Shown here: piece by piece, positions 18,429 through 55,150 of the stretch
How positions within the stretch are numbered: position 1 is the stretch's first letter
Layout of the letters: each line of letters starts with the position of its first letter
NCBI RefSeq assembly: GCF_001644645.1
Contig: NZ_CP011390.1
Location: forward strand, 3,902,001 to 3,966,000
Length of the DNA: 64,000 bases
Direction: 5' to 3'
DNA from: Flavisolibacter tropicus
GTDB taxonomy: Bacteria > Bacteroidota > Bacteroidia > Chitinophagales > Chitinophagaceae
Program-made: the position numbers and the translations under genes
The notes under the pieces: generated by a model
Told to the model about the DNA's origin: nothing
Database searches by the model: none
What the model saw: the letters and a program-made list of their open reading frames with translations, nothing else

Positions 18429-18664
18429 ATAAGAAAGATATTTTTATCGTTTGTTCCGCTAAGCTGTAAAGAACAAAACTTTAGTAAAGAAGCAGTAGAA
18501 AAAAGCTTGCTTGTGCGCTAAGCAATAGCCCTTCCCTTTGTACCCTCCTTTTCTCCATTTCTCTGTGCCCCACTGTGTTCTCCGTGTCTCCTATGTTTGT
18601 AACGGATCGTTTACTGTTTGTTGAGACAGGAGTTGATCTAGCCCTAGATTTGGTTTTAAAAAGT

Positions 18665-18830
18665 GAAAAAGGAGTGAGAGCCTTTGGTGTCTAAACAACT
18701 GTTGAAGTATGTTCTCACGGAGAAATGGCCTCACTCTTTTTTATCTCTTCGAGTTTGAACAGAATCTAAGGAATAGTGCTATAGGTCTATATCCAGAATA
18801 TCCAGCCAGGAGACAAAACGAAGGGAGATT
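18665..18830 (+). ncRNA. Candidate IS110 bridge RNA
   Basis: It lies between the inferred left end and the transposase gene, where IS110-group bridge RNAs are encoded. First loop: stem 18672-18682 with 18727-18736 (GAGTGAG-A-GCC/GGC-CTCACTC), holding GTGTCT (18687-18692), identical to left flank plus core (18584-18589), and CACGGAG (18716-18722), complementary to CTCCGTG and with one G-T wobble to right flank CTCTGTG (20005-20011). Second loop: stem ATCTCTTCG (18743-18751) with CGAAGGGAGAT (18819-18829, GG bulge), holding ACAGAATCT (18759-18767), identical to the element's right end (19998-20006), and ATAGG (18781-18785), complementary to left-end CCTAT (18590-18594). Target loop before donor loop is the IS621 order. 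The donor-side right guide does not extend through the core. Confidence 0.75.
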
Positions 18831-18850
18831 TTTCACTTTCCCCTATTTAA

Positions 18851-19903
18851 ATGCAGTGGTCTATGAGAAAAATTGTAAAGCAGGTAGCGGGCATTGATGT
18901 CGCTGCCAAAGAGCTGGTTGTAACCTTGGGACGGATGTATGATGACTGGACGCCCGAGACCTATGCCAGCAAGTCCTTTGCCAACAATCAAAAAGGCTTT
19001 CTAAGCCTGGTTTTGTGGGTAAAGAAGCTGACCGGTGCGGTTGAAGCCGTGCGTTATGTCATGGAGGCGACCGGGGTCTATCATGAGGCGCTGGCTTATT
19101 TTCTGGAGGCCCAGGGTCACCCGCTCACCATTGTGTTACCCAGCAAGATCAGCAACTATTTTAAAACACTTGACGTCAAATCGGTTACCGATACCACCGC
19201 CGCCGAAGCCATTGCCCGGTTTGGATTGGAACGGAAACTCGATAACTGGAAAAAGCCCAACGCCGTGTTCAAAAAGCTCCGGCAGTTAACCCGTGAGCGC
19301 GATCAGGTTGTTGAGGCCCGCACCGTGGCCAAGAATCAACTGCATGCCGAGGCCGCTGAAGCGGAACCTGGCCCAAACACAGTGGCCCGGTTGAAAAAAC
19401 AAATTGCCTTTTTCAATAAGCAGGAAAAAGAAATCAAAGAAGAGATCAGGGCCCTGGTAAAAGCCGACCCACAGGTCAGCCAGGCTGTTGACATCATGAG
19501 CACCCTGCCCGGCGTGGGTTCCTTAACCGCCGCCATTGTGCTGGCCGAGACCAATGGTTTTGAACTGGTCCGCAATAAACGGCAATTAAGCAGCTACGCC
19601 GGCCTGGATGTAAAAGAAAAGCAATCGGGCACTTCCGTCAAAGGCAAGCCCCGGATCTCCAAAAAGGGAAACAAGCAATTGCGAAAAGCCATGCACCTGC
19701 CGGCACTGGCGGCCATACGCCACGCCCCACGATTTAAAGCCGTCTATGCCAGGCTGGTCGCAAGGCATGGCATAAAAATGAAGGCAGCCGTAGCGGTACA
19801 AAGAAAACTGTTAGAGATCATGTATGTGATGTATAAAACCAAGACGCCTTACCAGAAAGAGTATGTACCCAAAATAGCCGAAGAAAATCAGGCGGCCGCC
19901 TAA
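18851..19903 (+). CDS. IS110-family transposase (DEDD/Tnp_20 type)
   Basis: This 350-aa protein could also start at ATG 18863. The N-terminal RuvC-like domain shows D16 in VAGIDVAAKE, E72 in VMEATGVYHE and D114 in SVTDTTAAEA. The fourth acid of the usual DxxD pair appears to be Ala here, which may be a subgroup trait or a misreading on my part. A long charged helical segment (about residues 135-210) follows. The C-terminal Tnp domain has LPGVGSLTAAIVLAE, SSYAGLDVKEKQSG and KKGNKQLRKAMH, containing the conserved region with the catalytic serine. The protein uses a bridge RNA to pair donor and target. Codon use is richer in G+C than neighbouring genes, fitting transfer. Confidence 0.95.
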   Translation: MQWSMRKIVKQVAGIDVAAKELVVTLGRMYDDWTPETYASKSFANNQKGFLSLVLWVKKLTGAVEAVRYVMEATGVYHEALAYFLEAQGHPLTIVLPSKISNYFKTLDVKSVTDTTAAEAIARFGLERKLDNWKKPNAVFKKLRQLTRERDQVVEARTVAKNQLHAEAAEAEPGPNTVARLKKQIAFFNKQEKEIKEEIRALVKADPQVSQAVDIMSTLPGVGSLTAAIVLAETNGFELVRNKRQLSSYAGLDVKEKQSGTSVKGKPRISKKGNKQLRKAMHLPALAAIRHAPRFKAVYARLVARHGIKMKAAVAVQRKLLEIMYVMYKTKTPYQKEYVPKIAEENQAAA

Positions 19904-19936
19904 AAAACTGGGGTGGTCATAAACAGACCACCCCAA
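19903..19936 (-). terminator. Hairpin shielding the transposase from antisense read-through
   Basis: TGGGGTGGTC (19909-19918) pairs perfectly with GACCACCCCA (19926-19935). The T-run (TTTTTTA on the minus strand) lies on the transposase side. It therefore terminates transcripts coming from the minus-strand gene at 20067-21632. Confidence 0.75.
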
Positions 19937-20066
19937 ACAGGCTGGCTTAAAGCCGCCTAAAACACAAAAATAAATGAATTAACTATTGGTATTTAACACA
20001 GAATCTCTGTGGTTCAATTCTGCGCCTTTCGGCGCCATCTGCGGGCTACCATTCAGCGCAAAGCAC

Positions 20067-21632
20067 TTATTTCTTTGACCGCTCACGCAAGCGGTAATCC
20101 TGTATCAACGGCGGGTTATCCGGCATCAGCGTAAAGTACACTTCAATATCAGTGTTCGTTCCTTCAATTATAAAGCTACCACGCAGTTGGTTCTCCGGCA
20201 CTATTTCTCCTACACGAACAATATTGCCCGCCTTGGCAAACAAGGCACTCGCCTCTTTCCGAAGGGAGTCAATCGGAAAGTCCTTAAAGAAGTTTCCAGA
20301 GAAAAGGCCACTTTGCTCGGCTCCCTTCCAATTAGGTAACAGTTTTGCCAACTGCTCTTTGCGCTCTTTTAATACGGGAGACGCAATTAATTGGCGCGGT
20401 TTCAATTGCGCTAAAGAGATCAACGTATCTAGTACCCGTATGTTCAGTGTAGCTGTAGGGGCATAGGTTACATTGGCAAAGCAAACTACACCTACGCCAT
20501 AATCTGGTAAGATCGTCCAGTTGCTGCCAAAGCCGGGCAAGCCACCGCTATGTCCTACCTGCACACGCCCTTCACAGTCCTTGGTCCAGCGCAGGCCAAA
20601 GGCATAGCCTGCCACCGTAGGACAGCTGCGCCCACTGGGATATTTATACGCTGCATTCAACGCACCCACCACTCCGGGCTGTTGCATCTCGCGTAGTGAG
20701 CTGCGCTTCAATACAACACTTTCTTTAGCAGTACGTGCCGGCCAGGCGCTCATATGCAGGGCCATGTATTTACTAAAGTCTTCCAGTGTGGTGATCACTC
20801 CGCCCATAGCGCCATAGGCGCCATCATGTAGCAAAGGCTCGTCTCTCCAGGCGCCGTTGATCCAGCGGTGGCCTTTCGCCAGTTGTCCTGCTGGTACCTT
20901 GGTATACTCCCAATAGGTGTGATCCATGCCTAAGGGCTTCCAGATATTTTCTGTTATGTATTGTTGATAGGTTTTTCCTGAAACGTTTGCTACAATCTTT
21001 CCCAGTAAAGCAAAACCCAGGTTACTGTATTCATACTGCAAGCCCGGCCCACTGGAAAACGCTGGATCTCTTTTTACTACATCTAACAACTCTTGGTCGG
21101 TAGCTGCCAGCTGGCGATCTGCCCATGGATCATCTTGCGGAAAGCCGCCCATATGATTGAGTAAATGACGGATGGTAATAACCGGTGCATCACTAGTGGG
21201 GTAGGTGATCTTCTTTAATTCAGGGATATACTTGGCTGCGGGTTCATCCAGTTGCAACTTGCCTTTATCACGCAGCTGCATAATGGCCATGGCCGTAAAG
21301 CTCTTGCTCATGGAAGCAATACGGAAATCGGTTTGTGTAGTTACTGGTGTCTTCGTTGTTATATCCGTAATTCCAGCCGTACCGGTGTACAGCAGTTGTC
21401 CGTCTACTACTACACCATATACCATACCCGGGAAGTGATTGTTCGTTGCATGTTCTTTATACAATTGATCAATCACTGCTTGTGTGGCCTTTATCTTTTC
21501 AATACGCTTAGCATCAGTAAATACCGGCGGCTGATAGCTATTGTGCACAGCTAAAGGTTGGGCCGACTGGGCATAAGAAGTAGTGGTGCCAATAGCAACA
21601 AAACCGAGGAGTAAAAAAGTAGAAAAACGCAT
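20067..21632 (-). CDS. Serine hydrolase of the beta-lactamase class C / PBP4* fold
   Basis: This 521-aa protein has a signal peptide (MRFSTFLLLGFVAIGTTTSY, cleavage after YAQS). The catalytic SxxK is in RIASMSKSFTAMA and the YxN motif is YEYSNLGFALLG. A Gly-rich third-motif region (VGHSGGLPGFGSNW) follows. These define the PF00144 family, which includes D-aminopeptidases, esterases and class C beta-lactamases. An extra C-terminal domain of about 130 residues makes it longer than a simple beta-lactamase. It acts in the periplasm. Together with the D-amino-acid deacylase divergent from it, a role in D-amino-acid peptide turnover is plausible but not shown. Confidence 0.9.
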   Translation of the reverse strand: MRFSTFLLLGFVAIGTTTSYAQSAQPLAVHNSYQPPVFTDAKRIEKIKATQAVIDQLYKEHATNNHFPGMVYGVVVDGQLLYTGTAGITDITTKTPVTTQTDFRIASMSKSFTAMAIMQLRDKGKLQLDEPAAKYIPELKKITYPTSDAPVITIRHLLNHMGGFPQDDPWADRQLAATDQELLDVVKRDPAFSSGPGLQYEYSNLGFALLGKIVANVSGKTYQQYITENIWKPLGMDHTYWEYTKVPAGQLAKGHRWINGAWRDEPLLHDGAYGAMGGVITTLEDFSKYMALHMSAWPARTAKESVVLKRSSLREMQQPGVVGALNAAYKYPSGRSCPTVAGYAFGLRWTKDCEGRVQVGHSGGLPGFGSNWTILPDYGVGVVCFANVTYAPTATLNIRVLDTLISLAQLKPRQLIASPVLKERKEQLAKLLPNWKGAEQSGLFSGNFFKDFPIDSLRKEASALFAKAGNIVRVGEIVPENQLRGSFIIEGTNTDIEVYFTLMPDNPPLIQDYRLRERSKK

Positions 21633-21739: not shown

Positions 21740-21930
21740 TAACTATTCCCTCCCTTATCAACTTGTTAACCTATCAACGAAAATCAGCCATCAGCTATCC
21801 TCATATCAGCCATTCCCTCCGTGCCCCTCCCTGCCCCCGCGTCTCCGTGGTTCCTCTCTCTCCGCGCCTCCGGCGCGCTCCGCTTGTAGCGTGCAGCGCG
21901 CAGCTTGTAGCTTTCCCCTTTCACGATCTT
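21740..21930. repeat. Word-mosaic repeat in a divergent promoter region
   Basis: The 373-base gap between divergent genes contains the modules CGCGTCTCCGTGGTTCCTC and CTCTCCGCGCCTCCGGCGCG, followed by GCTTGTAGCGTGCAGCGCG. The first carries TCTCCGTGG, the segment complementary to the bridge-RNA candidate's CACGGAG guide. The last resembles the 41161-41236 module. Confidence 0.75.
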
Positions 21931-54929: not shown

Positions 54930-55150
54930 CCTAATCTATGGTCACTTACAGGGGAGTTACAGAGAAGTTACAAAGGATATCCTCCTCTACTCCTTCACTA
55001 AACCTCCACTATTAACTCATTATTCATCACTCATCACTCATTACTCACCATTGACTCTCGACTATTAACTATCCCTCTGCGCCCTCCGTGTCTTTGTGGC
55101 TCCGTGGTTCCTCTCTTTCCGCGCCTTGGCGCGATCTGCGTAAAAACCCC
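54930..55150. repeat. Word-mosaic repeat upstream of the cupin gene
   Basis: The 374-base gap (to 55298) contains ATTCATCACTCATCACTCAT, CCTCCGTGTCTTTGTGGCTC and CTTTCCGCGCCTTGGCGCG modules. The CCGTGTCTTTGTGG and TCCGTGGTTCC stretches are close to the IS110 target phrase. The rest is A+T-rich leader. Confidence 0.8.

Follow-up and report, generated by a model that had tools for sequence, protein, structure and literature searches.

Among the described insertion sequences (IS) closest to the element analyzed here, IS621 of the IS110 group has a CT core and a long left end with a two-loop RNA in which the target loop precedes the donor loop, the left guide reading the bottom strand and the right guide the top strand of the target; it inserts into dispersed extragenic repeats, keeps a Ser-Gly pair in its Tnp domain and rebuilds a sigma70-like promoter at the junction of its circle (PMC11208160, PMC11208158). 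Its active site comprises D11, E60, D102, D105 and S241, the mutation of any of which eliminated recombination; D11 and E60 hold the Mg ion, and D105 is in contact with one of its water molecules (PMC11208158). Repeat targeting by IS110 elements is also known already for repetitive extragenic palindromes (REPs), as all listed copies of ISPa11, ISPpu9, ISPpu10 and ISRm19 (6/6, 7/7, 7/7, and 4/4) lie in high-copy extragenic repeats of this kind in Pseudomonas and Sinorhizobium (PMC1525189). Covariation between guides and targets has been described across IS110s (PMC11208160), and ISEc11/ISXne4, one pair of IS1111 type, illustrates a natural re-direction in which the guides changed together with the target (PMC11187229). 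In this study, a stretch of 64,000 nucleotides from Flavisolibacter tropicus (NCBI RefSeq assembly GCF_001644645.1, contig NZ_CP011390.1, positions 3,902,001 to 3,966,000 of the forward strand), hereafter the window, was analyzed with respect to one IS110-group element at window positions 18588–20006 (Table 1).

The window element shares the features of IS621 listed above, but its putative junction promoter is of the TAnnTTTG type, it targets another repeat, its protein is distant (phmmer E-value 4.9e−33), and the fourth catalytic Asp, present and needed in IS621 as D105, is absent. The lost acid is the most surprising part of our analysis and was not contained in a first-pass annotation of this DNA, which had proposed an IS110 element with a predicted bridge RNA programmed to the dispersed repeat of its own host. 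That core claim held, given that a second copy with the same loop 1 sits in the same repeat, the ends match and the stems covary. Unlike ISPa11, ISPpu9, ISPpu10, and ISRm19, the clade around the window element is directed to other, Bacteroidota repeats with matching guides, and where ISEc11/ISXne4 offered a single pair, 49 distinct guide pairs were obtained here within one IS110-group clade.

The element is bounded by CT|CCTATGTT on the left and ACAGAAT|CT on the right. These are the ends already given in the annotation, and they recur in the second copy and in the relatives, where the terminal words doubled as search anchors, so that the invariance of the ends is partly by construction. Apart from the CT core, the ends CTCCTATGTT and ACAGAATCT have nothing in common (judged by eye, no repeat finder was used), i.e., there are no long terminal inverted repeats. 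The element has a single gene, and its non-coding left end (18590–18850, 261 bp), in which the covarying RNA sits, is longer than the right one (19904–20004, 101 bp). The gene product matched PF01548 (80.9 bits, cut-off 29), PF02371 (89.2 bits, cut-off 21.3) and the NCBIfam model NF033542 ‘IS110 family RNA-guided transposase’ (194.2 bits, cut-off 140). Judged by its sequence, the segment is an IS110-group element with a predicted bridge RNA in its left end; together with its relatives it forms a divergent variant clade of the group and not a standard member, because one residue of the DEDD tetrad fails.

In this tetrad D16, E72, and D114 are present and A117 occupies the fourth position, where the ungapped HMMER alignment over the motif places TDTTA of the window protein on TDTVD of IS621, while S259 and G260 correspond to the conserved Ser-Gly of the Tnp domain. 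In order to describe this position across the clade, 414 distinct sequences were compared, which represent the nearest homologues (the best 120 of thousands in each of three protein searches, the proteins of the relative loci, the window protein, and two outgroups; L058 and L073, with a stop in frame, were excluded from all protein counts). The fourth position was without Asp in 399/414 sequences (A 321, S 43, C 28, D 15, M 5, T 2), and the equivalents of IS621 D11, E60, D102, S241, and G242 were kept in 413, 413, 414, 414, and 414 of them, respectively. Residue 119, two positions further on, was considered as a replacement for the lost Asp and rejected, being E in 203/414 sequences but Q in 170/414. 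No acidic position in the 414 sequences was conserved only in those without the Asp, and positions acidic in > 90% of the 399 were also acidic in at least 80% of the 15 that have it. A quick tree of 124 rows placed the clade's 12 rows with Asp (Brumimicrobium type) in one group nested among the others, and the two distant Asp-bearing outgroups were found on very long branches; the Asp of the Brumimicrobium-type rows may be a regain, or it may be the old state displaced by misrooting. One clade member, with Cys at the fourth catalytic position, comes from another phylum (L118, the metagenome-assembled genome (MAG) GWF2_33_9 of Ignavibacteria, Ignavibacteriota), and viral contigs contained three distant relatives (25–36% identity).

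The stems of the predicted bridge RNA were examined in 59 distinct sequences (L113 was absent from the alignment and L130 lay on the wrong strand there). A consensus of 39 pairs was paired in 97.5% of the cells (maximum of 500 shuffles: 85.4%), with 32 pairs changed on both sides (maximum 27) and 369 such cells (maximum 145), and sliding the structure by 1–3 columns left only 44–53% paired. Changes on both sides occurred in the target stem, the donor stem, and the apical hairpin of each, so the covariance check proposed in the annotation came out with stems kept in the relatives by compensatory changes. Rfam 15 had no family match up to E = 1 in window positions 18500–20100, which means only that no such model matched.

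Most of the guide assignments in the annotation could be read directly in the sequence. Loop 1 carries GTGTCT, identical to the left flank plus core (GTGT-CT, 18584–18589), and CACGGAG, complementary to CTCCGTG with one G-T wobble against the actual right flank CTGTG; the left donor guide in loop 2 is identical to the right end of the element. The proposed left-end guide ATAGG (18781–18785) had to be replaced: it falls in the apical stem of loop 2, which covaries, and occurs in only 5/59 sequences, the window included, versus 57/59 with AGGAG. Fixed registers were borne out by permutation for the target loop, where the left guide uses more than one, and by identity and complementarity alone for the donor loop. 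In 58/59 sequences, the left donor guide is ACAGA(A/G)T-GT despite the CT core at the ends, CT being found only in the window element (18766–18767) and its second copy; with GT in the donor loop, the first core base is mismatched almost without exception.

The comparison of guides with flanks was extended to relatives, namely the best 80 of 182 loci found from one protein alignment and 8 usable loci from a family search (several on the same contigs). Among 90 element loci, the left end CTCCTATGTT was present in 89 (it is missing in L122) and the right end ACAGAATCT in 80, and L087 had only a partial RNA. From 63 distinct RNA regions, 9 were without a flank, which left 54 for testing (49 distinct guide pairs, 7 with the right flank cut by a contig end). 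The right guide agreed with its own 5-nt flank at 4.72/5 positions (permuted 1.75, z = 18.6) and the left guide at 3.96/7 (permuted 2.09, z = 11.7), and 0 of 10,000 permutations reached either value. Thinning the set changed little, whether one element was kept per right 5-mer (n = 33; right 4.64 vs. 1.49, left 4.27 vs. 2.03), only the 29 with a right flank not of the TGTG/TGCG/CGTG/CGCG/AGCG type (right 4.69 vs. 1.55, left 4.28 vs. 1.84), one per distinct guide pair (n = 49; right 4.69 vs. 1.74, left 3.92 vs. 2.10), or the 43 guide pairs whose right flank does not end at a contig end (right 4.67 vs. 1.82, left 3.98 vs. 2.12). By position, the right-guide match was 91–96% from +1 to +5 and ended at +6, and registers shifted by 1 or 2 dropped it from 4.72 to ≤ 2.0. 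The right guide was perfect in 43/54 regions (66/79 loci). A subset of left guides fits one register nearer the apical hairpin, and 7/7 matches were found one base (L046, L051, L052) or two bases (L069) nearer to it, so the offset between left guide and core seems to vary from element to element. In L113, L117, and L120 (a pair of CTCCTATGTT 107 bp apart) and in L115 (99 bp), a partial second left end was seen just upstream, as if the element had inserted twice or the circle junction had slipped.

One other copy of the element was found in the genome (L002, reverse strand, 99.6% identity across 1419 bp), and its outer flanks are unrelated to those of the window copy (0.21 and 0.24 identical). 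The annotation had suggested comparing further copies with loop 1, and this sole other copy has an identical loop 1 and sits in the same repeat: the targets read CAGTGT-CT-CCGTGG at L002 and CCGTGT-CT-CTGTGG in the window, the right guide being perfect at the former. The repeat is degenerate, about 72 bp long, and its consensus contains a phrase similar to the one read by the guides. A model (R1) built from 23 copies gave 110 matches in the host genome at E ≤ 0.01 (the 23 model copies included) and 102 at E ≤ 1e−4. Four of the 110 are half-repeats bordering the two element copies, which both split the repeat at about the same position, and the 106 others amount to approximately 0.13% of the 5.94-Mb single-contig genome. 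The best 30 repeat copies were mostly free of open reading frames of ≥ 110 aa (no overlap in 23/30, vs. 25/120 control positions in the same loci, 95/120 of which overlapped). For comparison with REPs, i.e., high-copy extragenic repeats with a palindrome, the host repeat has 106 other matches, which lie mostly outside long frames in the 30 copies examined, but only a short stem (3 model pairs).

The annotation had called the recognized phrase a common intergenic word, of which one part stood: a degenerate repeat with a similar phrase is common, but the exact 16-mer CTCCGTGTCTCCGTGG is absent from the genome. A genome-wide scan of CTCYGTGTCTCYGTGG with ≤ 1 mismatch returned 15 sites, and the only one without a mismatch reads CTCCGTGTCTCTGTGG. 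Since GTGTCTCYGTG was found in only 2 of the 30 best repeat copies and CTCYGTGGTT in 22, conservation of the phrase is loose on its left side. R1 was present in 13/18 genomes of the genus (this one included) and was not found in the congener G325. An orthologous empty site as a syntenic pair, which the annotation had also suggested looking for, was not obtained from the congeners, and repeat copies within the same genome were used instead. The Bacteroidota origin that it assumed agrees with loci of the genus group that share flanks (L165 with L045, Paraflavisolibacter caeni; L166 with L051 and L167 with L046, Flavisolibacter MAGs). We also considered whether all IS110s of the host genome target this repeat, which was rejected, as L031–L033 and L035–L038 sit elsewhere (the ends of L034 and L039 were not resolved).

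Within the clade, the target loop has changed on many occasions and in several elements now fits high-copy host repeats, with the ends, the donor loop, and the RNA scaffold nearly fixed. In the congener G325, AAGGT precedes every one of the 11 left ends of a clade element, and its 11 right ends continue into CTATAA in ten cases and into CTGTAG in one; inspection by eye gave TTTAGGTCT and TTATAGAG as its guides, and AAGGTCTCTATAA occurs 30 times in this genome and 0 times in seven others. In four genomes that carry elements directed at CCCGATAGCTATCGGG, this word (≤ 1 mismatch) has 58, 9, 44, and 11 copies, and in four further genomes 0, 2, 3, and 0. The word CTNYGYGGTTAAA was counted 172 times vs. 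4 for the reversed control in Mucilaginibacter pedocola, where 10 loci represent at least 5 copies of one element, and in Niabella ginsengisoli 8 times vs. 4, all 8 reading CTATGTGG, the form that matches its guide. In a further genome of the genus (G330; L185–L188, L193, L196), a clade element with the guides CCGGGGTCT and GGCGAG (by eye) was placed after CCCGGGGT or GCCCAGGT and before CGCC, in GC-rich repeat-like DNA.

Elements with three-acid recombinases were found as copies 99.6–100% identical inside contigs, with outer flanks only 0.19–0.36 identical, in three genomes (2 in the window’s own genome, 3 in N. ginsengisoli, and 3 in Flavobacteria bacterium BAL38); one group of four loci without a complete element was dropped from this comparison. 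Because such near-identical copies stand at unrelated sites inside contigs in three genomes, elements without the fourth acid are probably active.

When the two ends are joined as in an excised circle, they give TTG-N20-TATGTTTG, with a spacing of 20 nt. Flavobacteria have TAnnTTTG as their sigmaA box, at −12 to −5 (PMC9723704), a TTTG near −33 has been described in Bacteroides fragilis (PMC7366714), and in IS621 the circle junction rebuilds its promoter in the same place (PMC11208160). A junction was obtained for 57 of the 63 distinct RNA regions, with both halves well kept (Table 1); TATGTTTG lies partly within a search-anchor word, and TTG and the last two letters of TATGTTTG lie outside it. 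The predicted bridge RNA would be transcribed from this putative promoter, and its form suggests a junction promoter apparently adapted to the sigma factor of the host.

Taken together, we consider it highly probable that the window holds an IS110-group bridge-RNA element directed at a dispersed repeat of its host. On this account, excision as a circle would join the right and left ends and complete a Bacteroidota-type promoter, from which the bridge RNA may be transcribed; the first loop would read the target, with the left guide on the bottom strand and the right guide (5 nt plus core) on the top strand, and the second loop the element’s own joined ends, after which the recombinase would insert the circle at the CT core of the repeat. 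Nearly all examined recombinases would work with three acids and a serine, the equivalent of IS621 D105 being a small or non-acidic residue. At the level of sequence, the ends, the matching of guides and targets, the covariation of the RNA, the membership of both sites in the repeat, the loss of the fourth acid, and the near-identical copies at unrelated sites have been demonstrated, and the matching of guides to repeats is strong; that the three-acid enzyme is catalytically competent is our inference. The host repeats may be exploited by the element as safe, non-lethal landing sites.

Several observations weigh against this account. The left guide is loose, agreeing with the window flank at 5/7 and with the L002 flank at 4/7 positions, and across the clade it reaches ≥ 5/7 in 25/54 regions in the main register and in 37/54 in the main or the next; 11/54 right guides are imperfect, with no fit in L129. 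For the donor guides, covariation is uninformative, as the element ends, which also served as search anchors, hardly vary. In G325, all ends lie at contig ends, so that left and right cannot be paired. The counts of CTNYGYGGTTAAA are near those of the reversed control in many of 31 host genomes, including the window’s own (2 vs. 4), and TCATTGCGAGRARCG, with 12 occurrences in the genome whose elements target it, has 9 and 13 in two others. Not every element targets an obvious repeat, and the copy numbers cover just four words. In 4/7 multicopy genomes (Mucilaginibacter lappiensis with at least 2 copies, M. pedocola at least 5, Pedobacter rhizosphaerae at least 2, Flavobacterium daejeonense at least 2), copies were seen at contig ends only, where assembly may make them look identical, and one left-flank pair of P. 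rhizosphaerae is 60% alike.

Recombinases lacking the fourth acid might be inactive, with a canonical four-acid IS110 enzyme of the same cell acting on their elements in trans, as could be expected from the loss of recombination in the IS621 D105 mutant (PMC11208158) and from nine other IS110 transposases in the window’s own genome, all with Asp at the fourth position (by eye). We regard this as unlikely, since the other IS110s with resolved ends that were compared sit at other sites, the loss is spread over hundreds of homologues that keep the other three acids and the Ser-Gly, the matched frame is without a stop in 78/80 genome loci, and the near-identical in-contig copies occur in three genomes. 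It appears similarly improbable that repeats are not specially favoured, with genic insertions purged by selection and guides matching flanks simply through the generic IS110 mechanism: targeting in the group is indeed by guide, the repeat copies lie mostly outside long frames, and the targets of several relatives have no recognized repeat identity, but the repeat makes up a very small share of the genome and nevertheless holds both copies at the same position, one repeat in G325 holds every left and right end (11 each) of one element, and the guide itself matches the repeat.

Lastly, as every match spans only 4–7 nt, the guides could resemble their flanks as short words do by chance. The annotation had already judged this unlikely, and in view of the permutation and register controls, none of the 10,000 permutations reaching the observed left or right match and the 49 distinct guide pairs giving the same result, we consider it hardly conceivable. 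Beyond the window element, it is likely, with less assurance than for the single locus, that a Bacteroidota-wide clade of bridge recombinases catalyzes with three acids and a serine and does without the fourth Asp, which is regarded as essential, and that its target loop is redirected time and again to dispersed repeats of the current host.

Next to the element, on the minus strand (20067–21632), lies a predicted serine hydrolase (class C beta-lactamase/AmpH-like), for which the best 25 listed NCBIfam models were all under their cut-offs.

Table 1. Window coordinates of the element, its predicted RNA and promoter parts, and nearby copies of the host repeat
Feature	Position	Strand	Basis or remark
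Left half of interrupted host repeat	18559..18591	+	R1 match G000:C1:3920559-3920591; spans core into first element bases
Left target GTGT adjoining core	18584..18587	+	Sequence
IS110-group element	18588..20006	+	1419 bp including both CT cores; second copy 99.6% identical; termini in relatives
TATGTTTG, −7 box (TAnnTTTG) of putative junction promoter, completed only in excised circle	18592..18599	+	Exact in 48/57 junctions; predicted start ~18604
Predicted bridge RNA core: outer stem, target stem-loop, donor stem-loop	18660..18839	+	Two stem-loops covary in 59 sequences; outer stem from single-sequence fold only; 5′ leader from ~18604 possible
Left target guide (LTG) plus core, TTGGTGTCT	18684..18692	+	Sequence; flank comparison
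Right target guide (RTG) CACGGAG, reverse complement CTCCGTG	18716..18722	+	Sequence; flank comparison
Left donor guide (LDG) ACAGAATCT	18759..18767	+	Identical to right end 19998-20006
Right donor guide (RDG) AGGAG	18808..18812	+	Complements CTCCT (core plus left end); AGGAG in 3′ part of 57/59 sequences
IS110 recombinase, 350 aa (alternative start Met5, 18863)	18851..19903	+	PF01548 and PF02371; D16, E72, D114, S259 kept; A117 at fourth catalytic Asp
TTG, −33 half of putative junction promoter, in right end	19986..19988	+	TTG here in 50/57 junctions
Right end (left donor plus core) ACAGAATCT	19998..20006	+	Sequence; ends of relatives
Right half of interrupted host repeat, with right target CTGTG 20007-20011	20004..20045	+	R1 match G000:C1:3922004-3922045
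Intact host repeat copy	21815..21886	+	R1 match G000:C1:3923815-3923886
Intact host repeat copy	55073..55142	+	R1 match G000:C1:3957073-3957142

A literature search (without subscription papers and preprints) returned no paper on the clade without the fourth acid, on the Bacteroidota clade or on the repeat words, six of which occurred in none of the papers searched; this is not a claim that they are absent in print. Bridge recombinases are candidate tools for genome writing, and in IS621 all DEDD acids are needed; a large natural clade without one of them, which is seemingly spreading, would test the catalytic model and widen the pool of enzymes. The clade also offers a natural record of re-programming, in which scaffold, donor loop, and ends are nearly fixed and the target loop changes with the target, so that the rules of guide change may be measured, and it would extend the targeting of repeats by IS110 elements beyond the REP cases.

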